From assembly GCF_003569765.1 (NCBI RefSeq), contig NZ_QXMG01000041.1, positions 1 to 53,276 of the forward strand: 53,276 bases of DNA. The letters are read 5' to 3'. Each line of letters opens with the position of its first letter. The first letter of the stretch is position 1. The stretch comes from Caldimonas tepidiphila (GTDB lineage: Bacteria > Pseudomonadota > Gammaproteobacteria > Burkholderiales > Burkholderiaceae_C). Shown here one piece after another: positions 16,572 to 30,919 of the stretch. A model generated the notes under the pieces. That model made no database searches. It worked only from the letters and a program-made list of their open reading frames with translations, and was not told the DNA's origin. The position numbers and the translations under genes were made by a program.

Positions 16572-19379
16572 TCAGGCCGCGGCCATCTGCCCCCGCACCA
16601 GCTTCTTCAGCTCCGGGATGCAGGAGCCGCAGTTGGTGCCGCACTTGAGCCGGCCCTGCAGCTGCGCGAGCTGCTCGTCGGCCGAGCCCGCGCAGCCGAT
16701 CAAGGTCTCGGCGATCTGCGGCTCGGTGACGTTGAAGCAGGTGCAGACCTGCCGCCCGCGCGCCGCGACCGCGACGGGCGGCCTGCCGCCGGGCGCGAGC
16801 AGCGCGCGCCCGTAGGCGTCGGCCGGCAGCTCGTCCTGCAGCAGCGCCCGGATCCAGCCCTCGGCGCTGGTGTCGCCCGCCAGCACGAAGGCCTCCAGCC
16901 GCGACGCCGCGCCATCGCGCACGAGGCGCATCGCGCGGCGCTGGCCGCGGCGGCGGTCCTCGTAGCGCAGCACCTCGCGCCCGGCGAGCCCGAGCAGGCC
17001 CTCGATGCGCGCGATCAACTCCTCGCTCGCCGGCTCGTAGTCGGCGGCGCGCAACAGCAGGCCGCTCATGCCGCGCGGGCTCGGCTCGCGGCCGAAGGGC
17101 ACGCAGCTCGCGAAGGCGAAGGACGGCATCAGCGCCCGCAGGGCCTCGCGCGCCGCCGGCGCGGCGTCCTCGGGCAGCCAGGCCATGCCGAGCAGCGTCC
17201 ACGGCATCTCGGCCTTCAGCACCTTCACCGCGCTGTGCTTGAGCTCCGGCTGGCGCGAGCCGGGGCAGAAGGCGGGCGAGGTCAGCGCATTGACGCCGGC
17301 GAGCGGCTCGCCCTGGCTGCCGCGTCCCGAGAGCACCTCCTCGCCCCAGTGCATCGCGATGAAGGCCTGCGCCGGCTGGACCTGCTCGCTGCCCTCGACC
17401 GGCAGCACGATCGAGCCCCGGCGCGAGGTGACATGCACCAGCTCGCCGGGCTTCAGCCCGCGCCGCGCGAGGTCCTGCGGGTTGAGCTGGATCGCGGGCT
17501 CCGGGACGTGGCCGAACAGCCGCCCGAGCAGGCCGGTGCGGCTCATGCCGTGCCACTGGTCGCGCAGCCGGCCGGTCGTCAGGCTGAAGGGGTAGCGCGC
17601 GTCGCGCGGCTCGGCCACCGGCCGGTAGGGCGCGGCGACGAAGCGGGCGCGGCCGTCGGGCGTCGGGAAGACGCCGTCCTCATAGAGGCGGGCGCGGCCC
17701 CAGCGGCCCTGCGCGTCGGGCGCGGCGCCTTCCGGGCAGGGCCACTGCTGCGGGCCGTCGCGCTCGATCAGCGCGTAGCTCAGGCCGGTGATGTCGAGGT
17801 CGCGCCCGCGCGTGGTCTCGCGGTGCTCGTTCCAGACCGACTCGGGCGTCTCGTAGGGGAACAGCGTGGCCTGCCCGTTCAGGCGCTGCGGCAGGCGGCG
17901 CTCCAGGCGGCGCGCGAAGTCGACCACCATCGACCAGTCGTGCCGCGCCTCGCCGGGCGCCGCCACTGCCGGGCGCACGCGGCTGATGCGGCGCTCGGAG
18001 TTCGTGACGGTGCCGTCCTTCTCGCCCCAGGTGGTGGCGGGCAGCAGCAGGTCGGCCCAAGCGCAGGTGGCGGTGCTGTTGAACGCCTCCTGGACGACGA
18101 CGAACTCGCAGCGCTCCAGCGCGCGGCGCACCGTGGCCTGGTCGGGCATCGACTGCGCCGGGTTGGTGCAGGCGATCCACAGCGCCTTCACCTCGCCGTC
18201 GGCCGCGGCCTGGAACAGCTCGACCGCGCTGCGGCCCGGCACGGACGGCACGTCCGCCACGCGCCACAGGCGCGCCACCTCGGCGCGGTGTTCGGGATTG
18301 CCGAGGTCGCGGTGCCCCGACAGCAGGTTGGCGAGTCCGCCCACCTCCCGGCCTCCCATCGCGTTGGGCTGGCCTGTCAAGGAAAAGGGGCCGGCGCCGG
18401 GGCGGCCGATCTGGCCGGTGGCGAGATGCAGGTTGACGAGCGCGGCGTTCTTCGCGGTGCCGCTGCTGCTCTGGTTCAGGCCCTGGCAGTAGAGCGACAG
18501 CGTGGCCTTCGACTGCGCGAACCAGTGCGCGGCCTTCACGATGTCGGCCTCCTCCAGCCCGCAGATGCGCGCGGTCTCCTTCGGCGTGAACTCGCGCACC
18601 AGCTCGCGCAGCGCCTCGAAGCCGCTGGTGTGCGCGTCGATCCAGGCGCGGTCGACCAGGCCCTCCCACAGCATCACGTGCAGCATGCCGTGGAAGAGCG
18701 CGACGTCGGTGCCGGGCAGCAGCGGCAGGAAGAGGTCGGCCACGTCGGCGGTCTCGGTGCGCCGCGGGTCGGCCACCACCAGCCTCATGCCGGGACGGGC
18801 CTTGCGCGCCTCCTCGATGCGGCGGAACAGGATCGGGTGGGCCCAGGCGGTGTTGGAGCCGACGATGAAGATCAGCTCGCTGTGGTCGACGTCCTCGTAG
18901 CAGGCCGGTGGCGCATCGGCGCCGAGCGTCTGCTTGTAGCCGGCCACCGCGCTGCTCATGCACAGGCGCGAGTTGGTGTCGATGTTGTTGGTGCCGATCA
19001 GGCCCTTGGCGAGCTTGTTGAAGACGTAGTAGTCCTCGGTCAGCAGCTGGCCCGAGATGTAGAAGCCGACCGCGTCGGGGCCGTGCGCGCGCACGATGCC
19101 CGCGAAGCGCTCCGCGGCCTCGTCGAGCGCGGCGTCCCAGCCGACGCGCTGCGGCGCCTCGCCGCGCGCGGCGCGCCGCATCGGGTGCAGCAGCCGCGCG
19201 TGGCGGGTCAGCGGCGCGGCGGCGGTCAGGTGCAGCGTGCTGCCCTTGGTGCACAGTCTGCCGAAGTTCGCCGGGTGGTCCGGGTCGCCGCGCACGCCGG
19301 TGATCTGGGCGCCGTCGGACTCGATGACGACGCCGCAGCCGACGCCGCAGTAGGGGCAGGTGCTCTTGGTTTCACGCAC
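16572..19379 (-). CDS. nasA: assimilatory nitrate reductase catalytic subunit
   Basis: Cytoplasmic molybdopterin enzyme reducing nitrate to nitrite, 935 residues. The N-terminal [4Fe-4S] site uses C8, C11, C15 and C43 (TCPYCGVGCG and FGRLCTKG). Molybdopterin-binding regions such as LFIVGSN-like LIFIVGSNTAWAHP and QPNAMGGREVGGLANLL follow. A C-terminal BFD-like [2Fe-2S] domain (about 877-935; C879, C881, C913, C917, C920) is an extra electron entry site, as in other NasA/NasC proteins. The GTG at 19379 is chosen because AAGGAG lies seven bases before it; an ATG at 19433 would overlap nirD by 19 bases. Last gene of the nirB-P-box protein-nirD-nasA run. Confidence 0.93.
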   Translation of the reverse strand: MRETKSTCPYCGVGCGVVIESDGAQITGVRGDPDHPANFGRLCTKGSTLHLTAAAPLTRHARLLHPMRRAARGEAPQRVGWDAALDEAAERFAGIVRAHGPDAVGFYISGQLLTEDYYVFNKLAKGLIGTNNIDTNSRLCMSSAVAGYKQTLGADAPPACYEDVDHSELIFIVGSNTAWAHPILFRRIEEARKARPGMRLVVADPRRTETADVADLFLPLLPGTDVALFHGMLHVMLWEGLVDRAWIDAHTSGFEALRELVREFTPKETARICGLEEADIVKAAHWFAQSKATLSLYCQGLNQSSSGTAKNAALVNLHLATGQIGRPGAGPFSLTGQPNAMGGREVGGLANLLSGHRDLGNPEHRAEVARLWRVADVPSVPGRSAVELFQAAADGEVKALWIACTNPAQSMPDQATVRRALERCEFVVVQEAFNSTATCAWADLLLPATTWGEKDGTVTNSERRISRVRPAVAAPGEARHDWSMVVDFARRLERRLPQRLNGQATLFPYETPESVWNEHRETTRGRDLDITGLSYALIERDGPQQWPCPEGAAPDAQGRWGRARLYEDGVFPTPDGRARFVAAPYRPVAEPRDARYPFSLTTGRLRDQWHGMSRTGLLGRLFGHVPEPAIQLNPQDLARRGLKPGELVHVTSRRGSIVLPVEGSEQVQPAQAFIAMHWGEEVLSGRGSQGEPLAGVNALTSPAFCPGSRQPELKHSAVKVLKAEMPWTLLGMAWLPEDAAPAAREALRALMPSFAFASCVPFGREPSPRGMSGLLLRAADYEPASEELIARIEGLLGLAGREVLRYEDRRRGQRRAMRLVRDGAASRLEAFVLAGDTSAEGWIRALLQDELPADAYGRALLAPGGRPPVAVAARGRQVCTCFNVTEPQIAETLIGCAGSADEQLAQLQGRLKCGTNCGSCIPELKKLVRGQMAAA

Positions 19380-19414: not shown

Positions 19415-19786
19415 TCAGTCGCAATGTCCGCATTCGGCATGGGACGGCTCGTCGAGCGCGAGGCGGTCGAGCTCGTCGACGTCGAGCGCGACGCAGCCGT
19501 CCTCGACGCGCACCGAGAAGCGCGGCGTGCGGCCCTCGTCGGGCGCGCGGGCGCAGCCGTCCTCCAGGCCGATCGTCCAGTTGTGCAGCGGGCAGGCGAC
19601 GCTCTCGCCGAACACGATGCCCTGGCTCAGCGGGCCGCCGCGGTGCGGGCAGCGGTCGAGCAGCGCGTAGACCTTGTCCCCGCCGGTGCGGAACAGGGCG
19701 ATGGCGGGGCCGCGCGCGCGCCGCACCTGGCGGGCGCCCTTGAGGGGGATGTCCTCGACGCGGCAGACGGTTTTCCATTGACTCAT
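19415..19786 (-). CDS. nirD: nitrite reductase small subunit (Rieske protein)
   Basis: Small subunit of NADH-dependent assimilatory nitrite reductase, 123 residues. The Rieske [2Fe-2S] ligands are all present: C46-x-H48 and C65-x2-H68 (CPHRGGPL, CPLHNW). In enterobacterial NirD these ligands are lost, so this one probably carries a real cluster. A Cys- and His-containing tail (HAECGHCD) ends the protein. It is separated from nirB by the inserted P-box protein gene. Confidence 0.93.
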   Translation of the reverse strand: MSQWKTVCRVEDIPLKGARQVRRARGPAIALFRTGGDKVYALLDRCPHRGGPLSQGIVFGESVACPLHNWTIGLEDGCARAPDEGRTPRFSVRVEDGCVALDVDELDRLALDEPSHAECGHCD

Positions 19787-19828: not shown

Positions 19829-20650
19829 TCAGGCGGCGAGCCGCGCGTACTGGCCGGTGACGCGGTCCATCAGGTCGAGGATGTTCTCGCTGGTGCTGAA
19901 GACCTGGGCGGCGCGCGTGGCGCCGGCGCTGCCCTCCGCGCCGCGCTCGAGCGCGTTCTCGAAGAACACCCATTGCTGCCGCGCGAGCTCGAGGTCGCCG
20001 CGGATCGACGCGGTGGCCTGCGGCGCGGCGTCGAGCTCGCGCAGCGCGCGCACGAACTCCGCGCGCGCGGCGTCGAACTCGGCCCGCGCATTGGGCAGCG
20101 TCACGTTCCAGGACTGCACCAGGAAGAACTTCGCGGTGCGCTGCGACAGCATGCGCTGGCGGCCGGCGATGTTGACGAGCCGGCCCACCGGCTGGCCCGA
20201 GTGCTTCTCGAGCTGCGCGGTGCCCTGCTGCGCGAGCTGCAGCACGCGCGTGTCGAGCGCGATCAGCTCCGGCGTTGCGGTGCGCGCGGGCGCGGTGCCG
20301 ACGAGCGCGGTCTTGTACTGCCCCCACACCGGCTCGAGCGCGTCGTAGGTGCCGCGGATCTCGGGCGTCGGCGCGAAGAGCTTCAGCTCGACGAGCTGGC
20401 GGTCGAACAGCGCCATCGAGTCGTGCAGCACGCGCTCGGCGCGCGGCACGTCGATGCCCTGGCCGATCGCGAGCCAGGCCTTGGCCATGCGCTGCGACAG
20501 CATGCGCTGGCGGCCGGCCTTGTTGATCGCCTCGTTGAGGCTGTGGATCTGGGCGCGCGCGGCCGGGACGGCCGCGGCGAGGAGGCAGGCGCCGGCGGCC
20601 TGCATCAGGCGGCGGCGGGAGGCGGGCACGGGGGCGAAGCGATGACTCAT
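19829..20650 (-). CDS. Tat-exported protein with two NarX-like P-box motifs
   Basis: A 273-residue protein of the PilJ/'type IV pili methyl-accepting chemotaxis transducer N-terminal' family. The N-terminus SRRRLM plus a hydrophobic stretch and ARA|Q looks like a twin-arginine signal, so it should act in the periplasm. Two copies of a motif, AINKAGRQRMLSQR (41-54) and NIAGRQRMLSQR (160-171), resemble the nitrate-binding P-box of the NarX sensor, whose K49, R54 and R59 contact or surround nitrate; all three are matched in the first copy. The rest is helical. There is no transmembrane output domain, so it is a soluble binding protein. It sits between nirB and nirD. ATG 20650 is preferred over TTG 20668. 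Confidence 0.85.
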   Translation of the reverse strand: MSHRFAPVPASRRRLMQAAGACLLAAAVPAARAQIHSLNEAINKAGRQRMLSQRMAKAWLAIGQGIDVPRAERVLHDSMALFDRQLVELKLFAPTPEIRGTYDALEPVWGQYKTALVGTAPARTATPELIALDTRVLQLAQQGTAQLEKHSGQPVGRLVNIAGRQRMLSQRTAKFFLVQSWNVTLPNARAEFDAARAEFVRALRELDAAPQATASIRGDLELARQQWVFFENALERGAEGSAGATRAAQVFSTSENILDLMDRVTGQYARLAA

Positions 20651-20701: not shown

Positions 20702-23146
20702 TCAGATCTCGATCGGCGCGAACTGGCGTGCGTCGACCGCCGCCTTCTCCTGCTCGAACCAGGGGTCGGGCTCGCCGTCGAGCGCGAACTGCAGCCGCTC
20801 CCATAGCGCGCGCCGGTTCCCGGCGTCGTCGAGCACCTTCTTCCTCACATGGTCGAGGCCGACGCGCTTGACCCAGTGGCAGGTGCGCTCCAGGTACCAG
20901 CCCTCCTCGCGGTAGAGCTGCAGGAAGGCGCCGCTGTACTCCATCACCTCCTCGGGCGTCCTGACCTTCACGAGGAACTCGGCGACCTCGGTCTTGATGC
21001 CGCCGTTGCCGGCGACGTAGATCTCCCAGCCGGAGTCGACGCCGATGATGCCCACGTCCTTGATGCCGGACTCGGCGCAGTTGCGCGGGCAGCCCGACAC
21101 CGCGATCTTGACCTTGTGCGGCGCGTACATCTTCCACAGCGCGCGCTCGATGTCCTTGCCCATCTGCGTGCTGTCCTGCGTGCCGAAGCGGCACCACTCG
21201 CTGCCGACGCAGGTCTTCACGGTGCGCAGCGCCTTCGCGTAGGCGTGGCCGCAGGGCATGCCGATGTCCTTCCAGACACCGGCGAGGTCCTCCTTCCTGA
21301 CGCCGAGCAGGTCGATGCGCTGCCCGCCCGTGACCTTGACGGTTGGGATCCGGTACTTGTCCACCGCGCCGGCGATGCGGCGCAGCTCGTCGGCGGTGGT
21401 CTCGCCGCCGAACATGCGCGGGATCACCGAGAAGGTGCCGTCCTTCTGGATGTTGGCGTGGGCGCGCTCGTTGATGAAGCGGCTCTGCGGGTCGTCCTTC
21501 GCCTCCTTGGGCCAGGTCGAGATCAGGTAGTAGTTGACCGCGGGGCGGCAGGAGCTGCAGCCGTCCGGGCTGCGCCAGTCGAGCGCCCGGTACACGCCGT
21601 CGATGGTCAGCAACTTCTGCTCGCGAATCGCGTCGCGCACCTCCTGGTGGCTGTGCTCGGTGCAGCCGCACATCGCCTTGTTCTTCGGCGAGGCGGAGTA
21701 GTCGCCGCCGGCGGTGAACATCAGCAGCTGCTCGACGAGGCCGGTGCAGGAGCCGCAGGAGGCGCTCGCCTTGGTGTGCTTCCTCACGTCCTCGAGCGTG
21801 AACAGGCCCTTCTCCTTGATCGCCTTGCAGACCGCGCCCTTGGTGACGCCGTTGCAGCCGCAGACCTCGTCGCTGTCCGCCATCGCGGCGGCCTTGCTCT
21901 GGCCCTGGTGGCCCGTGTCGCCGAGGTTCGATTCGCCGAACATCAGCTTGTCGCGCAGCTCGGCGACGTTCTTGCCCTCGCGCACCAGCTTGAAGTACCA
22001 GCTGCCGTCGACCGTGTCGCCGTAGAGGCAGGCGCCGACGAGCCGGTCGTCCTTGAGCACGAGCTTCTTGTAGACGCCGCCCCAGGGGTCGGACAGCACG
22101 ATCTCCTCGGTGCCCTCGCCGCCCATGAAGTCGCCGGCGGAGAACAGGTCGATGCCGGTGACCTTCAGCTTGGTCGAGACCTGGCTGCCGGTGTAGCGGC
22201 CGATGCCGAACTCGGCCAGGTGCGTCGCGCAGACCTTGCCCTGCTCGAAGAGCGGGGCGACCAGCCCGTAGGCGATGCCGCGGTGCGCCGCGCACTCGCC
22301 CACCGCGTAGATGCGCGGATCGGTGACGGTCTGCAGCGTGTCGGTCACGACGATGCCGCGGTTGCACAGCAGCCCGGCCTTCTCGGCGAGCTCCACGTTC
22401 GGGCGGATTCCGGCCGCCATCACGACGAGGTCGGCGGGGACCTCGCTGCCGTCCTTGAACTGCACCGCCTTCACCCGGCCGGCCTTGCCGCCGTCGCGGT
22501 CCCCGACCAGCGCCGCGGTCTGCGCCGGCAGCAGGAACTTCAGGCCGCGCTCCTCGAGCGACTTCCTCAGCAGGCCGCCGGCCACCGAGTCGAGCTGGCG
22601 CTCCATCAGCCAGTCGCCGATGTGCACCACCGTCACCTGCATGCCGCGCAGCATCAGGCCGTTGGCGGCCTCCAGGCCGAGCAGGCCGCCGCCGATCACG
22701 ACCGCGTGCCTGTACGTCTTCGCCGCCTCGATCATCGCGTTCGTGTCGGCGATGTCGCGGTAGCCGATCACGCCGTCGAGCTCGCGGCCGGGCACCGGCA
22801 GCATGAAAGGGTTGGAGCCGGTGGCCAGCAGCAGCCGGTCGTAGGCGGCCTCGGTGCCGTCCTCGGCGCGCACGACGCGACGGCGCCGGTCGATCTCGAC
22901 CACCTTCTTGCCCAGGTGCAGCGTGATGCCGTGCTCCTCGTACCACGACAGCGGGTTGAGGACGATCTCCTCGAGCGTCTGCTCGCCGGCGAGCACCGGC
23001 GATAGCAGGATGCGGTTGTAGTTCGGGTGCGGCTCGGCGCCGAACACCGTGATCTCGTAGAGGTCCGGGGCGATCTTCAGCAGTTCCTCGAGCGTGCGCA
23101 CGCCCGCCATGCCGTTGCCCACCATCACCAGCTTCATCTTCTTCAT
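20702..23146 (-). CDS. nirB: nitrite reductase (NADH) large subunit
   Basis: Siroheme enzyme reducing nitrite to ammonium in the cytoplasm with NADH, 814 residues. The order is: FAD/NAD(P)-binding reductase (VMVGNGMAG at the start, VVIGGGLLGLEAANGL), two BFD-like [2Fe-2S] regions (VCGCNGVTKG, ASCGSCTGLVEQLL, MCGCTEHSHQEV), then the nitrite reductase module with the siroheme-[4Fe-4S] cysteines in CVGSEWCRFG and SGCPRNCAESG. An AGGAG eight bases before ATG 23146 sets the start. It is the first gene of the minus-strand cluster and has a sigma-54-like promoter upstream. Confidence 0.96.
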   Translation of the reverse strand: MKKMKLVMVGNGMAGVRTLEELLKIAPDLYEITVFGAEPHPNYNRILLSPVLAGEQTLEEIVLNPLSWYEEHGITLHLGKKVVEIDRRRRVVRAEDGTEAAYDRLLLATGSNPFMLPVPGRELDGVIGYRDIADTNAMIEAAKTYRHAVVIGGGLLGLEAANGLMLRGMQVTVVHIGDWLMERQLDSVAGGLLRKSLEERGLKFLLPAQTAALVGDRDGGKAGRVKAVQFKDGSEVPADLVVMAAGIRPNVELAEKAGLLCNRGIVVTDTLQTVTDPRIYAVGECAAHRGIAYGLVAPLFEQGKVCATHLAEFGIGRYTGSQVSTKLKVTGIDLFSAGDFMGGEGTEEIVLSDPWGGVYKKLVLKDDRLVGACLYGDTVDGSWYFKLVREGKNVAELRDKLMFGESNLGDTGHQGQSKAAAMADSDEVCGCNGVTKGAVCKAIKEKGLFTLEDVRKHTKASASCGSCTGLVEQLLMFTAGGDYSASPKNKAMCGCTEHSHQEVRDAIREQKLLTIDGVYRALDWRSPDGCSSCRPAVNYYLISTWPKEAKDDPQSRFINERAHANIQKDGTFSVIPRMFGGETTADELRRIAGAVDKYRIPTVKVTGGQRIDLLGVRKEDLAGVWKDIGMPCGHAYAKALRTVKTCVGSEWCRFGTQDSTQMGKDIERALWKMYAPHKVKIAVSGCPRNCAESGIKDVGIIGVDSGWEIYVAGNGGIKTEVAEFLVKVRTPEEVMEYSGAFLQLYREEGWYLERTCHWVKRVGLDHVRKKVLDDAGNRRALWERLQFALDGEPDPWFEQEKAAVDARQFAPIEI

Positions 23147-23295: not shown

Positions 23296-25026
23296 GTGAG
23301 CTACGACGTGGACAGCGGCGCCTGCAGCCGCAGCGGGCAGCGCGAGGCGAACGAGGATTTCGCCGCGGTGGTGCATCCGGCGCCCCAGGATGAGGCGCGC
23401 GGGCTGATCGCCGCGGTGGCCGACGGCGTGTCGAGCGGCGGCGCGGGCGCGGAGGCCGCGCGCAGCACCGTGCGCAGCGTGCTCCAGGACTTCCACGCCA
23501 CGCCCGCCACCTGGGACACCACGGTCGCGCTCGACCGGCTCATCGGCGCGCAGAACGCCTGGCTCGCCGACCACAACCGGCGCCGCCAGGGCAGCGCGGG
23601 CGGCGGGGTCACCGCGATGTGCACGCTCACCGCGCTGGTGCTGCGCGGCCAGGGCTGGGCGATCGCCCACGTGGGCGACACGCGCTGCTGGCTGCTGCGC
23701 GGCGGCGAGTGCCTCCAGCTCACGCAGGACCACTGCCTCGACCATCCCGACCTGCGCAGCCAGCTCACGCGCGCGATCGGGCTCGACGCGCACGTCCACG
23801 TCGACTACGTCGAGGGCGAGCTGCGCCCGGGCGACACCTTCGTGCTCACGAGCGACGGCGTGCACGGCGTGCTCAGGCGCGAGCGCATCGCGGCGCTGGC
23901 GGGCGAGGGCGGCGCGCAGCAGGCGGCCGAGGCGCTGGTCGACGCGGCGCTGGCCGCCGGCAGCCGCGACAACGTCACCGCGATGGTGCTGCGCGTGCGC
24001 GGCCTCGCGCCCGGCCGGCTCGACGACCTGCTGCGCCGCAGCCGGCTGCTGCCGGCGCCACCACGGCTGAAGCCCGGCGAGAGCCTCGACGGCTACACCG
24101 TCCTCGCGCAGCTCGCCGACACCGGCGTGCACCGGCTCTACCGGGCCCGCGACGAGCGCAGCGGCGCCGAGGTGGTGCTCAAGGCGCTGCACGAGGCGCG
24201 CGCGAGCGACCCCGAGGAGCGCGCGATGCTCGCGCACGAGGCCTGGCTCGGCCAGCGCCTGACCGCGCGCGACGCGCGGGGCCTGGTGCGCGTGCACGAG
24301 CCGCGCGACCCGAGCGCCTTCTACGTCGTGTTCGACTGGCATGCCGGCCGCACGCTCGAGGAGCTGCTCGCGCAGGGCCGGCGCTTCGAGGTCGCCGAGG
24401 TAGTCGACGGCGCGATCGCGGTCGCCCGCGCGCTTGGCCGGCTGCACCGCATGGGCGTCGTGCATCGCGACGTCAAGCCCGACAACCTGCACCTCGGCGA
24501 GGACGGCCAGTGGCGGCTGCTCGACCTCGGCGTCGCGCTGTCCGGCCGCGAGCCGGCGGTGCAGCGCGAGCTGCACGCCGGCACGCCGAGCTACATGAAC
24601 CCCGAGCAGTGGGACGGCGGACCGCAGGGCGAGGGCGAGGGTGCCGACGCGATGAGCGACCTCTACGCCCTCGGCGTCACGCTCTACCGCTGGCTGACGG
24701 GCCGGCTGCCCTACGGCGAGATCGAGCCCTGGCAGACCGCGCGCTTCCGCCGCGATCCGCGCGCACCGTCGCGGCTGCGCCCGGACGTGCCGATCTGGCT
24801 CGACCACGTGGTGCTGAAGGCCGTGGCGCGCGAGCGGTCGCGCCGCTTCGAGACCGCCGAGGAGCTCGTGCTGGCGCTGCAGCGCGGCGCCTCGCGGGCG
24901 CTGCCCGCACCGGGCGCCACGCCGCTGGTCGCGCGCGACCCGGCCGCGCTGTGGAAGATCGGCCTGGCGGTCTCGCTGCTCTTCAACGCGCTGCTCGTGA
25001 TCTGGCTGCTGTTCCTGCCGCGCTGA
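23296..25026 (+). CDS. bifunctional PP2C phosphatase / Ser-Thr protein kinase
   Basis: A 576-residue fusion. Residues 1-235 form a PP2C domain (GQREANEDF, AVADGVSSGG, AHVGDTRCW, TSDGVHGVL, SRDNVTAMVL), which dephosphorylates Ser/Thr. Residues about 265-540 form a Hanks-type kinase: VVLKALHEA holds the lysine, HRDVKPDN has the catalytic D392, DLG replaces DFG, and GTPSYMNPEQW is the activation segment end. A single hydrophobic helix at about 552-574 anchors the C-terminus. The enzyme can both add and remove phosphate; its substrate is unknown. Homologues are known next to nitrate assimilation genes in Burkholderiales. GTG 23296 is chosen because the PP2C domain begins there; ATG 23188 would add 36 low-similarity residues and overlap the nirB control region. 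Confidence 0.85.
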   Translation: MSYDVDSGACSRSGQREANEDFAAVVHPAPQDEARGLIAAVADGVSSGGAGAEAARSTVRSVLQDFHATPATWDTTVALDRLIGAQNAWLADHNRRRQGSAGGGVTAMCTLTALVLRGQGWAIAHVGDTRCWLLRGGECLQLTQDHCLDHPDLRSQLTRAIGLDAHVHVDYVEGELRPGDTFVLTSDGVHGVLRRERIAALAGEGGAQQAAEALVDAALAAGSRDNVTAMVLRVRGLAPGRLDDLLRRSRLLPAPPRLKPGESLDGYTVLAQLADTGVHRLYRARDERSGAEVVLKALHEARASDPEERAMLAHEAWLGQRLTARDARGLVRVHEPRDPSAFYVVFDWHAGRTLEELLAQGRRFEVAEVVDGAIAVARALGRLHRMGVVHRDVKPDNLHLGEDGQWRLLDLGVALSGREPAVQRELHAGTPSYMNPEQWDGGPQGEGEGADAMSDLYALGVTLYRWLTGRLPYGEIEPWQTARFRRDPRAPSRLRPDVPIWLDHVVLKAVARERSRRFETAEELVLALQRGASRALPAPGATPLVARDPAALWKIGLAVSLLFNALLVIWLLFLPR

Positions 25027-25454: not shown

Positions 25455-26717
25455 TCAGGCGCTCCGCGTGGCGCGCGAGGTGCCGGGCCGCGGGGCCGCG
25501 GCGGGCGTGCCGGGCCGGGCCCGCCCGCCCTTCTCGGCCCAGGTGCGCGTCCAGCGCAGCTGCACGAGGCGCAGCATCGCGAGCATCGCCAGCGCGAGCG
25601 CGGCGAAGGCGACGAAGCCCCACAGGTAGGTGCCGGCGTACTGCTTCGAGAGGCCCATCGCGTTGGGCAGGAAGCCGCCGCCGAGCGCGCCGACCTCGCC
25701 GATCATCGAGCCGGCCACCGCGGTGGTCAGCGGCCAGCGCAGCGGCACGAGCTGGAACAGCGCGCCGTTGCCCGCGCCCAGGGCGGCGAAGCACAGCATG
25801 AACAGCAGCGTCGTCACCACCACCGAGCCGCCGGCGAAGCCGCACATCACGAGGGTCACGGCCACCGCGAGCAGCACGCCGGTGAGCGTGTTGATGCCGC
25901 CGATGCGGTCGGACACGTAGCCGCCGAGCACGCGCACCGCCGAGCCCATCAGCGTCGCGAGCATCGTCAACTGCCCCGCCTCGACCTTGGTGACCTTGAA
26001 CTGGTCGTAGAAGTAGGTGGGCAGGAAGCTCGCGAGGCCGATGAAGCCGCCGAAGGTGACGATGTAGATCAGGCTGAAGGCCCAGCCGTCCTTCTCGAAC
26101 AGGCAGGAGACGTGCTCGCGGAAGGTCTGGTGCTCGCGGTCGGGCGGCTCCTTCGCGCAGAACCACATCACCGCCATCGGCACCAGCATCGTCAGCGCGG
26201 CCAGGCCGTACACGGTCTGCCAGCCGTAGGCGGTGGCCAGCGGCGGCGCGAACAGCACCGCGAGCACGGTGCCGGAGTTGCCGGCGCCGGCGATGCCCAT
26301 CGCCAGGCCCTTGTAGCGCGGCGGATACCAGCCGCTGCCCAGCGACAGCGCGACGCCGAAGCTCGCGCCGGCGATGCCCAGCAGCACGCCCATCAGCAGC
26401 ACGTCGTCGTAGCTGTCGACCGCGACGTAGCCGAACACCAGCGCGGCGATCACGAGGCCCATCTCGACCATCGCGGCGTTCTTGCGCCCGATGTACTGCG
26501 CCAGCACGCCGAGCGGGAAGCGCATCAGCGCGCCGGCGAGGATCGGCACCGAGATCATGAAGCCCTTCTGCGCCGGCGTGAGGTTGAAGGCTTCGCCGAT
26601 GAACGGGCCCATCGCGCCGTTGAGCACCCAGATCGCGAAGCAGAAGTCGAAGTAGAGGAAGGAGGCGAAGAGCGTCGGCCAGTGGCCCGCCTTCATGAAG
26701 GTCTTGTAGCTGGACAT
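25455..26717 (-). CDS. narK: NarK-type nitrate/nitrite transporter (MFS)
   Basis: Major facilitator superfamily protein of the nitrate/nitrite porter family, 420 residues with about twelve membrane segments. ALMRFPLGVLAQYIG in the second helix carries the anion-binding arginine, and the glycine-rich family signatures are SFGVALSLGSGWYPPRYKGLAMGIAGAGNSG and EVGALGGGFLPNAMG. In assimilation clusters it brings nitrate into the cell for NasA. The MSSYKTF start at 26717 is the family start; the longer open frame upstream is leader. A leader of about 258 bases with hairpins separates it from its sigma-54 promoter. Confidence 0.92.
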   Translation of the reverse strand: MSSYKTFMKAGHWPTLFASFLYFDFCFAIWVLNGAMGPFIGEAFNLTPAQKGFMISVPILAGALMRFPLGVLAQYIGRKNAAMVEMGLVIAALVFGYVAVDSYDDVLLMGVLLGIAGASFGVALSLGSGWYPPRYKGLAMGIAGAGNSGTVLAVLFAPPLATAYGWQTVYGLAALTMLVPMAVMWFCAKEPPDREHQTFREHVSCLFEKDGWAFSLIYIVTFGGFIGLASFLPTYFYDQFKVTKVEAGQLTMLATLMGSAVRVLGGYVSDRIGGINTLTGVLLAVAVTLVMCGFAGGSVVVTTLLFMLCFAALGAGNGALFQLVPLRWPLTTAVAGSMIGEVGALGGGFLPNAMGLSKQYAGTYLWGFVAFAALALAMLAMLRLVQLRWTRTWAEKGGRARPGTPAAAPRPGTSRATRSA

Positions 26718-26776
26718 CGTGGGTCTTTCGCAGGTGCGGGCGCGGTTCTCAGCAAGGACGGCCCGGGGCCGGACGC

Positions 26777-26853
26777 AGCGACATGCCGCCGCGCGGCAGC
26801 GGCCGGGGGGGCGGGACGGGGACGGCTCGGAAGGCGCGGTGGCGCATGTCGCT
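26777..26853. repeat. 10-base inverted repeat in the narK leader
   Basis: AGCGACATGC (26777-26786) and GCATGTCGCT (26844-26853) are exact inverted copies with 57 bases between them, within the narK leader. The same word occurs a third time upstream of nirB (23182-23191). It could be a protein-binding site, or the arms of a long stem in the leader RNA. Confidence 0.45.
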
Positions 26854-26892: not shown

Positions 26893-26908
26893 GGGAGGGC
26901 ACATGGCG

Positions 26909-26926
26909 GCGCACGGCACTGTGCGC
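26909..26926 (-). promoter_or_regulatory. ANTAR-type hexaloop hairpin in the narK leader
   Basis: On the minus strand GCGCAC-AGTGCC-GTGCGC is a perfect six-base-pair stem closing a six-base loop with A at loop position 1 and G at position 4. These are the conserved loop bases of RNA targets bound by ANTAR proteins. The opposite strand gives loop GGCACT, which does not fit, so the direction agrees with narK. An ANTAR gene is divergent from it. Confidence 0.6.
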
Positions 26927-26951
26927 GTGACCGGCGGTGCTGTCGCACGGT

Positions 26952-26973
26952 CGAGGTGCAGCGTCACACCTCG
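26952..26973 (-). promoter_or_regulatory. first leader hairpin of narK
   Basis: On the minus strand CGAGGTG and CACCTCG form a perfect seven-base-pair stem around an eight-base loop TGACGCTG, or eight pairs and loop GACGCT if a U-G pair closes it. It begins within two or three bases of the predicted sigma-54 transcription start. It may be the first of the paired stem-loops an ANTAR protein binds, but its loop has G rather than A at position 1. Confidence 0.5.
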
Positions 26974-26984
26974 GGGCGCTCTGT

Positions 26985-27001
26985 TCGCAACAGCCGTGCC
27001 A
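26985..27001 (-). promoter_or_regulatory. sigma-54 promoter of narK
   Basis: On the minus strand TGGCACG-GCTG-TTGCG matches the sigma-54 consensus TGGCACG-N4-TTGCW at all but the last base, with GG and GC ten bases apart. Transcription should start near 26975. Nitrogen-limitation control through NtrC is expected for such a promoter; I did not find an obvious NtrC site. Confidence 0.75.
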
Positions 27002-27113: not shown

Positions 27114-28388
27114 ATGACCACCGCCTTGCTGCTCGTGACCGAGGGGCCGCAGACCCCGCCGCTCGCCGCCGACCTCGCGTCGCTCGGCATTCACGTCCTT
27201 GGTGCGAGCGACGGCGTCAATCTGGTGCGCGAGGTGGCGCGCCAGGTGCCCGACGTGCTGGTGTGCTGGACGCCGAGCCCGGATGCGGCGCTGCTCGCGG
27301 CGCTCGCGGCGCTGCGCGACACCGCGCCGCTGCCGGTGGCGCTGTTCACGCTCGACGCGGACGTGACGCTGATGGAGGGGGCGCTCGACAGCGGCGTGCA
27401 TGCCTACGTCGTCAGCGGCTACGGCCTCGCGCGCCTGCGGCCGACCCTGCACCTGGCGCAGCTGCGCTTCCGGCGCGAGTCGCGCCTGCGTCGAGAGATG
27501 CAGGAGCTCGGCGAGCGCTTCGAGGAGCGCAAGCTCGTCGACCGCGCCAAGGGCATCCTGATGCGCGCGACGCAGGTCTCCGAGGACGAGGCCTTCCGCG
27601 TGCTGCGCACCGCGTCGATGCACGTCAACCAGCGCGTCGGGCAGGTCTCGCGCCAGATCATCGACGCGGCGCACCACGCCGAGTCGGTCAACCGCGCGGG
27701 CCAGCTGCGCATGCTGTCGCAGCGGCTCGTGAAGCTGCACGCGCTGCGCTGCGCCAACGCCGACGAGGCCGGCGCGACCCGGCTGCTGGCGCAATCGGTG
27801 CAGCGCGCCGAGCAGACGCTCGCGCATCTCGAGCGCTCGCTGTCCAGGCCCACCTTCGGCGACCTCGTCGACGCGGTCAAGGGCACCTGGCGCGAGCTGA
27901 AGGCCGAGCTCGACGCGGAGCCGCGCCGCGTGCGGCTGCGCGAGCTCGACGAGCATGCCGAGCGGCTGATGACGCAGGCCGAGCAGCTCACGCTCAGCCT
28001 CGAGACCGCCGGCAGCACGCCGCCGCTGCACGTGATCAACGTCTGCGGGCGCCAGCGCATGCTGTCGCAGCGGCTTGCCAAGCAGGCGCTGCTGACGACG
28101 CTGCTGCCGCGCGACGTGGCGGCCGCGATCGCCGAGGCCGCCGCCGAGACGCAGGCGCGCTTCGAGCAGGCGATGACCCATCTCGCTGGCATCCCGCTGA
28201 GCTCGGCCGAGATCCGGGAGGGGCAGGAGCTCGCCCTGCAGGAATGGCGCCGGCTGCTCGACGGCGTGCAGCGCGTGCACGGCCCGGCCGGGCGGCTGCT
28301 GCTGGCCGAGGCGAGCGAGGCGCTGCTGGAGCAGCTCGACCGGCTCACCGAGCGCTACGAGCGCAGCATGCAGACGCTGATCGGCTGA
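27114..28388 (+). CDS. ANTAR antiterminator fused to NarX-like P-box sensor
   Basis: A 424-residue regulator. Residues 1-118 fold like a receiver, but the phospho-acceptor position is C51/W52 (DVLVCWTPSP), so it is a pseudo-receiver. Residues about 125-185 are an ANTAR RNA-binding domain (RKLVDRAKGILMRATQVSEDEAF, then VNQRVGQVSRQII). The C-terminal 235 residues carry two P-box-like motifs, NRAGQLRMLSQR (193-204) and NVCGRQRMLSQR (309-320), matching R54 and R59 of NarX. ANTAR proteins bind leader hairpins and prevent termination. The known NasR uses a NIT domain for nitrate; here the PilJ/P-box module probably does that job. It is divergent from narK. The start is not certain; ATG 27072 is also in frame. 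Confidence 0.85.
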   Translation: MTTALLLVTEGPQTPPLAADLASLGIHVLGASDGVNLVREVARQVPDVLVCWTPSPDAALLAALAALRDTAPLPVALFTLDADVTLMEGALDSGVHAYVVSGYGLARLRPTLHLAQLRFRRESRLRREMQELGERFEERKLVDRAKGILMRATQVSEDEAFRVLRTASMHVNQRVGQVSRQIIDAAHHAESVNRAGQLRMLSQRLVKLHALRCANADEAGATRLLAQSVQRAEQTLAHLERSLSRPTFGDLVDAVKGTWRELKAELDAEPRRVRLRELDEHAERLMTQAEQLTLSLETAGSTPPLHVINVCGRQRMLSQRLAKQALLTTLLPRDVAAAIAEAAAETQARFEQAMTHLAGIPLSSAEIREGQELALQEWRRLLDGVQRVHGPAGRLLLAEASEALLEQLDRLTERYERSMQTLIG

Positions 28389-28549: not shown

Positions 28550-29617
28550 ATGATTTCAGCCGAAGAGACCCTTTCCGCCGACGTCCTGGAGCAGATGCTC
28601 CGGCAGGCCCACGCGCGCGGCTGCGACGACCACCGCTTCCTGCAGCACCTGCAACTCGCGGTCGAGCCCTTGCGCGCCGGGGTGTTCGCGAAGGATCCGC
28701 AAGGGCGCTACCTGTTCGTGAACCAGGCGGCGGCCGACGTGATCGGGCTGCCGGCCGCGCAGATCGTGGGTCGCCGCGACACCGACATCTTCCCGGCCGA
28801 ACTCGCGCACCGCATCGTCGAGCTCGACCGCAGCGCCCGCAGCCAGCGCCGCGCGCTGGAATGCGAGGAGGCGCTGCCGGCGCCGGGGCAGCCCGGGCTG
28901 GAGCGCGACTTCTTCTCGGTGCGCGTGCCGGTCTCGCAGCGCGAGAGCGACCCGCTGCAGCCGCTGTGCGGCATCTGGATCGAGATCACCGAGCTGCGCC
29001 GCACGCAGGACCAGTTGCGCCAGGCGCTCGCGCAGTTGCAGCACGACGCTGCGGCCGGGGCGAGCGGCCCGGACGGGCAGGTGCGCGACCCGCTGACCGG
29101 CGTCTATGCACGCGGGCACTTCGAGGAGCAGGTGCGCCGCGAGATCGAGGTCTCGCTGCGCGAGCATCGCGAGTTCGCGCTCGTCACGGTGGAGGTCGAC
29201 GCCTTCGATGCGCTGATCGGGGAGCACGGGGTCGCGGCCGGCGAGCGCGTGCTGCAGGCGCTCGGCCTGCAGCTGCGCGCGAGCACGCGGGCGATGGACG
29301 CGCCCTGCCGGCTCGGCGACGAGCGCTTCGCGGTGCTGCTGTCAGGCATCGGCCTGGCCACCGCGCATGCGCGCATGGAGAACGTGCGCCGCCAGTGCGA
29401 GGCCCTGCCGGTGATGCACGAGGGGCGCGAGATCCGCTTCACCGTCTCGGTGGGGGTGGCCTGCTTCCCGCACACCACCGCCCGGCCGGACGCGCTGCTG
29501 CCGGCGGCCGAGCGGGCGCTGGCGCAGGCGCGCGAGCGGGGCGCCAACACGGTCGCGCTGGCCAGCATCTCCTTCGATGCGCCGGCCGCCGGCCTCGACG
29601 AGCCGCTGTCCTTCTGA
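28550..29617 (+). CDS. PAS-GGDEF protein with degenerate active site
   Basis: A 355-residue protein. A PAS domain lies at about 35-150 (FAKDPQGRYLFVNQAAADVIG) and a GGDEF-fold domain at about 178-345, beginning DPLTGVYARGHF. The signature GGDEF reads GDERF (256-260, in RLGDERFAVLL). The first metal-binding Asp (VEVDAFD, D217) is kept. Loss of the GG pair suggests reduced or no cyclic-di-GMP synthesis, so it may be a receptor or scaffold. ATG 28517 in frame is an alternative start; neither has a good ribosome site. It follows the ANTAR gene by about 160 bases on the same strand. Confidence 0.85.
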   Translation: MISAEETLSADVLEQMLRQAHARGCDDHRFLQHLQLAVEPLRAGVFAKDPQGRYLFVNQAAADVIGLPAAQIVGRRDTDIFPAELAHRIVELDRSARSQRRALECEEALPAPGQPGLERDFFSVRVPVSQRESDPLQPLCGIWIEITELRRTQDQLRQALAQLQHDAAAGASGPDGQVRDPLTGVYARGHFEEQVRREIEVSLREHREFALVTVEVDAFDALIGEHGVAAGERVLQALGLQLRASTRAMDAPCRLGDERFAVLLSGIGLATAHARMENVRRQCEALPVMHEGREIRFTVSVGVACFPHTTARPDALLPAAERALAQARERGANTVALASISFDAPAAGLDEPLSF

Positions 29618-30623: not shown

Positions 30624-30805
30624 GAGGGTGTCCGCCGCGAGCCGTGAGCCGCATTCCTGAACCCAGGGGATTCAGGTGGGCGAGGTCAGTCGGGCTTCGG
30701 GTTCGTCTGACGCGAGACGATCACACCCGCCGGACATTTTCCAAGCCCTTGCTCAGAGAGCATCGGTTCAAGGAAATATAGAACCCACGCGAACGCAACG
30801 GACGG
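30624..30805 (-). ncRNA. ssrS: 6S RNA
   Basis: Directly downstream of zapA on the same strand, where ssrS is found in most gamma- and betaproteobacteria. On the minus strand a TAGAAT (30810-30815) is a suitable -10. The predicted RNA is about 182 bases. The ends can pair (GGGTCCGTCC near the 5' end with GGCGGACACCC near the 3' end). A CTTGAACC...GAGCAAGG arm lies in the 5' half, and the 3' arm hairpin CCTGAATCCCCTGGGTTCAGG resembles the CUUGAACC/GGGUUCAAG hairpin of E. coli 6S. Exact ends are estimated. 6S RNA sequesters sigma-70 RNA polymerase in stationary phase. Confidence 0.8.
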
Positions 30806-30919
30806 ACCCATTCTAAGCGGCCGGCCCGATCGACCCGGCAGGCCGGGCCTGTTCGGCTCAGGGATACCGCAGGCGCCGCTTGCATTGCGGTGCGCCGGGG
30901 TGCAGGCGCGCGAGCAAGC

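Follow-up and report, generated by a model that had tools for sequence, protein, structure and literature searches.

The window analysed here, a stretch of 53,276 nucleotides from Caldimonas tepidiphila (contig NZ_QXMG01000041.1), contains the gene of a regulator in which a receiver-like domain is followed by an ANTAR RNA-binding domain and two PilJ/NarX-type units. This protein is probably a cytoplasmic one-component nitrate regulator of nitrate assimilation: the PilJ pair would serve as the sensor, and the ANTAR domain would act on the hairpins P1 and P2 in the leader of a divergent narK or nirB gene. The domain architecture, its conservation, the gene context, the promoter match and the covarying RNA element were observed in the sequences themselves.

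Domain Architecture of the ANTAR-PilJ Regulator

The regulator gene comprises the following features.

27114..28388, + strand: ANTAR-PilJ regulator gene, 424 amino acids (Pfam, 21-row alignment; ATG at 27114, stop codon at 28386-28388)
27114..27473, + strand: receiver-like domain without the acceptor Asp, residues about 1-120 (Pfam, alignment, model)
27504..27662, + strand: ANTAR RNA-binding domain, residues 131-183 (PF03861, 1.3e-17)
27663..28013, + strand: first PilJ/NarX-type unit, residues 184-300 (PF13675, predicted helices, internal duplication)
28029..28385, + strand: second PilJ/NarX-type unit, residues 306-424 (McpN 6gcv profile match at 8.8e-11, predicted helices, duplication)
27687..27734, + strand: nitrate-box motif 1, VNRAGQLRMLSQRLVK, residues 192-207 (G196 and R199 invariant, 21/21)
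28035..28082, + strand: nitrate-box motif 2, INVCGRQRMLSQRLAK, residues 308-323 (G312 and R315 invariant, 21/21)

The open reading frame 27114-28388, proposed in the original prediction, has the right coordinates and encodes a product of 424 amino acids. In the Pfam search the ANTAR domain scored 63.8 bits against a cut-off of 27.3, and PilJ (PF13675) matched at 1.9e-21 in two stretches; both domains were matched in 21/21 aligned regulator sequences, whose identity to the window protein falls to 33%. The Response_reg match of the N-terminal part is weak (0.014, under the family cut-off). The acceptor position, set by eye at W52, is occupied by Asp in one of the 21 rows, and this alignment has neither a conserved acidic pair around residues 8-11 nor a conserved lysine around residues 98-103. 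The pseudo-receiver lacking the acceptor Asp and the ANTAR domain, both proposed earlier, are thus borne out by Pfam and the alignment. NIT (PF08376) gave no Pfam match in the regulator at E up to 1, and matched the comparison proteins L087, L088 and L090 at 9.1e-59, 8.4e-53 and 1.9e-44. The maximum hydropathy over 19 residues is 1.51. A membrane segment is not apparent, so the sensor module should be cytoplasmic, which supports the earlier idea of a periplasmic-type nitrate module placed in a non-membrane protein.

Nitrate-Box Motifs and Duplication of the PilJ Unit

The positions of the two window motifs, VNRAGQLRMLSQR (starting at residue 192) and INVCGRQRMLSQR (starting at residue 308), were verified. 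Residues N193, G196, R199, M200, L201, S202, Q203 and R204 of motif 1 and residues N309, G312, R313, Q314, R315, M316, Q319, R320 and K323 of motif 2 are invariant in the 21 rows. G-x-x-R is given as the nitrate-binding part in a review (PMC8199190), and this motif is kept in both copies in 21/21 rows. The strict N-box published for McpN fits neither of the two window motifs (0/2), each being one residue off, and is present in 5 of the 21 regulator rows. An alignment between the two C-terminal halves shows a duplication (hhalign probability 98.8, 28% identity). Given the PilJ and ANTAR matches in all rows, the invariant residues and the internal duplication, the motifs are not due to chance.

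The profile of the second half has the PilJ domain of McpN in its nitrate-bound form (6gcv, 8.8e-11) as its closest solved sensor by sequence, followed by PilJ; NarX (3ezh) was matched at 0.006, and the NarX/NarQ matches are weak altogether (0.006 and worse). The claim of two NarX-like P-boxes therefore holds in part: both motifs are as described, but the N-box of PilJ/McpN is nearer to them than the P-box of NarX. PilJ domains with an N-box are found, among other proteins, in transcriptional regulators (PMC6381276). The two PilJ copies are best read, by analogy with NasR, as halves of one site within a single chain. The two GxxR arginines would face each other in this site, as an analogy with NasR and NarX suggests.

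AlphaFold2 predicted the full chain (21-row alignment) with a mean pLDDT of 91.8 and a pTM of 0.72, and residues 184-424 with a pLDDT of 94.1 and a pTM of 0.91. The latter model has eight helices, which are read as two four-helix sets; the four-helix fold in the C-terminal part, on which the original prediction had been staked beforehand, is thus present in the predicted structure. The top solved matches of the full-length model are EutV (6ww6), Rv1626 and AmiR. Among the best 50 of the 222 fold matches of the C-terminal half, the highest TM-score (0.62) belongs to NasR (chain B), NarQ fragments reach 0.26-0.36, and McpN and NarX do not occur. The fold likeness of this half to NasR is suggestive only.

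The narK Leader: Promoter and RNA Element

The region divergent from the regulator gene carries the following features.

26987..27001, − strand: sigma-54-type −24/−12 promoter of narK, TGGCAC-N5-TTGC (10/11 positions)
26895..26974, − strand: narK leader RNA element, model R1 (E 6.6e-13 in its own genome; the window is 1 of the 10 training sequences)
26953..26972, − strand: hairpin P1, 7 bp, hexaloop GACGCU (covariation)
26929..26952, − strand: helix M between P1 and P2 (82% of cells paired in A3, 83% in A6)
26909..26926, − strand: hairpin P2, 6 bp, hexaloop AGUGCC (covariation)
26899..26940, − strand: possible helix X, GCAC 26940-26937 with GUGC 26902-26899, crossing M (80% of cells paired in A6; weaker than P1/P2)

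Promoters were scored against the sigma-54 −24/−12 consensus. The best score was at least 9/11 in 19 of the 20 divergent regions compared (the window and 19 others), and in 4% of blockwise shuffles. A P1 hairpin (at least 6 pairs, hexaloop R-N-N-G-N-N) lies 10-16 nt past the promoter GC in 19/20 regions (shuffles 1.25%); ten of the 20 regions have a second, alignable hairpin of this kind at a nearly constant distance from the first. On these 10 sequences P1 and P2 have 95% of cells paired, with 17 double-change cells against 5.0 in shuffles. On 29 leaders aligned by MAFFT, 28 of them outside the training set but all picked by model hits, the values are 94.4% and 32 against 9.2. The cell counts of helices M and X also covary above shuffles (A6); counted by pairs changed on both sides, M is not above shuffles (281/500) and X is borderline (46/500). 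X connects the loop of M with the stretch that follows P2; as the two helices cross, they could be alternatives or form a pseudoknot. The predicted fold of the window element contains P1, M and P2, and no Rfam family was found for the narK leader.

Position 4 of the hexaloop is G in both loops of 29/29 leaders (rows picked by model hits). Position 1 is A in 15 and G in 14 of the P1 loops, and A in 22 and G in 7 of the P2 loops. The targets of NasR and EutV are described as two hairpins with loop A at position 1 and G at position 4 (PMC7496416, PMC3369931). The window P2 loop AGUGCC fits this A1/G4 pattern; the P1 loop GACGCU starts with G. The hairpins of ANTAR type make the narK leader the probable target of the regulator, in line with the original prediction.

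A 32-codon open frame with a ribosome-site-like stretch GGAGA is located in the narK leader (window 26749-26847, − strand), and comparable short frames were seen by eye in the leaders of loci L028 and L034. The window frame is a possible leader peptide.

Specificity of the Leader Model

Contig searches with the single window protein found no relative. The search with the C-terminal alignment gave at least 215 confirmed stretches, of which 80 were kept, comprising 55 regulator loci and 25 PilJ-only loci. L160 was placed among the latter from its translation read by eye, without a Pfam scan, and L123, L129, L134, L143, L144 and L154 were counted as regulator loci from tblastn spans alone. The covariance model R1 matched 32/55 regulator loci and 0/25 PilJ-only loci at E 0.05, and each match lies directly upstream of the regulator gene, on the strand divergent from it; an extra row of L140 on the other strand (E 0.018) overlaps the true match. 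At E 0.002, 28/55 regulator loci were matched, 24 of them not identical to training sequences (the identical ones being L098, L101, L109 and L111). The window genome has one significant match (6.6e-13), the next best being 0.3.

In 150 genomes of the family of the window organism, its own genome included, R1 matched 18 at E 0.01: the 10 training loci, G056, G046 and six genomes without the regulator. The match of G056 precedes a nirB operon distant from the regulator gene. That of G046 (E 0.009) was taken as chance, since the window marker proteins are not nearby.

Distribution and Gene Neighbourhood

The regulator, called at E 1e-30, is present in 21 of the 150 family genomes. The gene directly divergent from it in 20 homologous loci is narK (15), nirB (4) or is replaced by a contig end (1); the proposed nitrate-assimilation setting is thus supported by 19/20 loci. 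In the larger set narK or nirB lies divergently upstream in 48/55 regulator loci (1.7 kb distant in L167), and the other seven are represented by two NarK genes of another type, four contig ends and L142, which has neither. Of the 21 regulator genomes, 19 have NasA at 1e-200, against 105/150 overall; the remaining two are G104, whose assembly is fragmented, and G143, with a NasA-like match of 40%. Mutual exclusion between NIT-ANTAR and ANTAR-PilJ proteins was considered and dropped: NIT-ANTAR occurs in 4/21 regulator genomes, which is about the chance level (36/150).

A homologous cluster is present on a Comamonadaceae plasmid. The homologue there bears the annotation "type IV pilus chemotaxis transducer domain protein", so that the present findings are relevant to database naming. 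The alphaproteobacterium Lichenibacterium ramalinae and a Beijerinckiaceae genome bin, also alphaproteobacterial, both combine the regulator with the R1 leader, which is followed by a NarK-family gene (in the bin, under its curated cut-off). The protein tree (49 rows, midpoint root; L126, which ended at 193 amino acids on translation, was excluded) places these two as sisters (99/96) inside a group (97/92) whose other rows are betaproteobacterial. Regulator and leader nested in this way appear to have moved together.

Proposed Mechanism and Alternative Explanations

The scheme below is proposed from sequence as regards nitrate and RNA binding, the shared site, the control direction and the type of block (termination or stalled translation). 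The sigma-54-type promoter would fire and start the narK transcript, and the nascent leader RNA would fold into P1, M and P2. Within one chain the two PilJ units would pair as a pseudo-dimer with a single nitrate site, to which each unit would contribute one GxxR arginine. With nitrate bound there, the ANTAR domain could be freed or repositioned. The divergent narK transcript (nirB in some relatives) carries P1 and P2 with their hexaloops at its 5' end; the nitrate-bound regulator would then hold these hairpins, and narK expression would go on. The ligand may perhaps include nitrite as well as nitrate. Sigma-54 promoters stand under NtrC control; combined with nitrate sensing, the logic would be nitrogen shortage AND nitrate present. 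The Klebsiella nasF operon follows the same two-layer logic.

A number of observations weigh against this reading. For the C-terminal half, Foldseek returned no solved structure at E 0.001, and its top row was talin (E 0.14). The full protein was found at 1e-45 in two of 274 genomes of the class, namely the window genome and one family member, which points to a narrow lineage; two partial matches cover residues 2-187. R1 misses 23/55 regulator loci, and in the 20 family regions it is strong only in the 10 training regions, while the others reach E 0.0013 at best; P1 is nevertheless present in 9 of these 10 poorly scored regions. The P1 loop starts with G in 14/29 leaders, against A in the NasR and EutV targets, and the folding energy of the window element is ordinary (z −1.2, 25/200 shuffles as low). 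Upstream of the window nirB no ANTAR-type hairpin and no second significant R1 match of the genome were found; a leader in front of this gene was rejected on these grounds, and a weak sigma-54-like match (8/11) lies ahead of it. The window genome also encodes a NasT-like ANTAR protein (G000 C20), six family genomes have the leader without the regulator at E 1e-30, and no U-tract terminator was seen in the window leader.

The NasT-like protein and four of the six regulator-less genomes are the base of an unlikely explanation, in which the leader is really targeted by a NasT-like protein and ANTAR-PilJ acts elsewhere or only modulates. These four (G091, G103, G129 and G078) carry a NasT-like protein. 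In the other two (G097 and G109) a NIT-ANTAR protein is encoded on the same contig as the nas genes, and G078 has NIT-ANTAR elsewhere in its genome; the leader format is consequently not tied to one ANTAR design. The NasT-like gene of the window genome, however, has its own NrtA-like neighbour with a sigma-54-type site and one ANTAR-type hairpin, and regulator and leader are adjacent across the family in addition to their apparent joint transfer. Moreover, six of the 21 regulator genomes (G011, G046, G058, G067, G133 and G139) have no second ANTAR among the matches listed (down to 8.7e-8; the second match of G046 is 8.5e-7), and ANTAR-PilJ is the only strong ANTAR candidate there. Very unlikely is a loss of nitrate binding by the PilJ units, which would then serve as a dimerization scaffold or bind another ligand. 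The deviation of both motifs from the strict N-box by one residue could be taken in this sense, as could PilJ of P. aeruginosa, counted as not binding nitrate in PMC6381276; but the same paper states that the N-box is not conserved in PilJ itself, while the G and R of GxxR are invariant in both motifs of the regulator and its neighbourhood is that of nitrate assimilation.

A translational or Rho-dependent output, with the same protein and target, is quite possible, if somewhat short of an even chance. ANTAR binding to P1 and P2 would shift helices M and X ahead of the ribosome site, without an intrinsic terminator. The lack of a U-tract terminator in the window leader agrees with this variant, as do the crossing of M and X, each of which covaries, and a hairpin after the element in 21/36 leaders (shuffles 28%), with at least 4 T among the 8 bases of the tail in just 2 of them. 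For actinobacteria, PMC8164766 names ANTAR-RNA pairs that control translation or termination. On the other side, terminator-like matches occur in 10/34 leaders against 2.5 expected from shuffles; in five of these the hairpin is P2, followed by a T-rich tail, and in the other five it is one that closely follows the element. A pseudoknot could also allow M and X to exist together, and published accounts have EutV, NasR and AmiR act on termination (PMC3369931, PMC7496416). An overlap of P2 with an intrinsic terminator is not found in the window leader and is seen in 5/34 leaders; in PMC3369931, about 30% of ANTAR-type RNA hits had such an overlap.

Relation to Known Systems

The preferred reading, a nitrate regulator acting on the narK leader, has its nearest counterpart in NasR of Klebsiella oxytoca (NIT-ANTAR), which also combines a nitrate sensor and ANTAR in one chain and has a leader with hexaloop hairpins ahead of nitrate-assimilation genes. 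In NasR the NIT sensor (PF08376) precedes ANTAR, whereas the window regulator has tandem PilJ units after ANTAR and a receiver-like domain. The regulator is most likely nitrate-responsive, working like NasR but built of PilJ with the reversed domain order. NasT of the NasS-NasT system shares the receiver-like domain, ANTAR and the control of nitrate assimilation; it depends on the separate NasS (PMC3795266), whereas the window regulator has the fused PilJ pair.

The PilJ domain of McpN from Pseudomonas aeruginosa (6gcv) belongs to the same family and has the N-box residues, but it is a periplasmic domain of a chemoreceptor, in contrast to two copies per chain and no apparent membrane segment in the regulator. 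The sensor domain of NarX/NarQ has a P-box-like motif, resembled especially by motif 1 (AGQLRM); it is periplasmic, occurs in histidine kinases and matches weakly by sequence. EutV (receiver-ANTAR) has a dual-hairpin RNA target and gave the best fold match of the full model (6ww6). Unlike the window regulator, which lacks the acceptor Asp, EutV is phosphorylated, and the P1-P2 linker of the narK leader holds an extra helix.

One-protein nitrate ANTAR regulation (NasR), PilJ nitrate domains and the dual-hairpin target are already known; such a target ahead of nitrate transporter and nitrite reductase genes was reported earlier (PMC3369931). No description of the ANTAR-PilJ regulator, as regards the combination, the domain order or the fused PilJ pair, was found in the open-licence literature searched. 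Figure 1 of PMC3369931 has 17 ANTAR architectures, and PilJ-ANTAR may be among them. The regulator suggests that a single-protein nitrate regulator acting through RNA can be built in a second manner, from PilJ units and with the domain order opposite to that of NasR. A covarying candidate RNA target sits beside its gene, and with the two together the switching of an ANTAR domain by a sensor domain becomes testable in a new geometry.

A broader proposal, tentative and on the doubtful side, is a portable nitrate switch cassette. The pseudo-receiver, ANTAR and fused PilJ pair would be a third, separately built nitrate-ANTAR design, travelling with its own leader and placeable before different nitrate genes. 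The leader would be a real switch with M and X as alternatives and an output without need of an intrinsic terminator. Its format, common to genomes with NasT-like, NIT-ANTAR and ANTAR-PilJ proteins, would mean that sensors were swapped over a fixed RNA.

Other Features of the Nitrate Cluster and Its Surroundings

Beyond the regulator the gene order is as follows: NarK-family transporter, PP2C-kinase, nirB, secreted double-N-box PilJ protein, nirD and NasA-type reductase.

25455..26717, − strand: NarK-family MFS transporter, the gene behind the leader (TIGR00886 at 2.9e-71, below the curated cut-off; MFS_1)
20702..23146, − strand: NirB nitrite reductase large subunit (TIGR02374 at 3.4e-278, over the cut-off)
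19415..19786, − strand: NirD small subunit (TIGR02378 at 5.7e-25, over the cut-off)
16572..19379, − strand: molybdopterin reductase, named NasA from its place beside nirBD; start approximate (NCBIfam)

The best NCBIfam matches of the NasA-type reductase are formate dehydrogenase alpha (2.6e-157), NasA (6e-142) and NasC (4e-139), all below cut-off. The small protein between nirB and nirD (19829-20650, − strand) consists of a PilJ pair only, with a Tat-like signal recognized by eye and two strict N-boxes. Similar genes are found in the nas operons of L025, L031 and L037 (3/20 loci) and elsewhere in the same genome (C24); the protein is perhaps a periplasmic nitrate-binding accessory. A PP2C phosphatase-Ser/Thr kinase fusion gene (about 23299-25026, + strand) lies inside the cluster and is near the regulator in 15/20 loci. 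The regulator gene is adjoined by a PAS-GGDEF diguanylate cyclase gene (28550-29617, + strand), a similar gene being nearby in 10/20 loci.

Elsewhere in the window genome (L078, 8820-9120) an NrtA-like gene comes after a NasT-like gene and has a sigma-54-type site of 10/11 and one ANTAR-type hairpin with the loop AACGGC; this NrtA-like leader is a possible separate target of NasT. A second ANTAR-like family (L093-L097, in G046, G091, G103, G078 and G056) has a receiver with the acceptor-type motif LLDIRM, a weak ANTAR tail and the motif MHRYSL. The 6S RNA of the window was located at 30625-30807 (− strand; Rfam RF00013, 56 bits), near a TauE/SafE gene.
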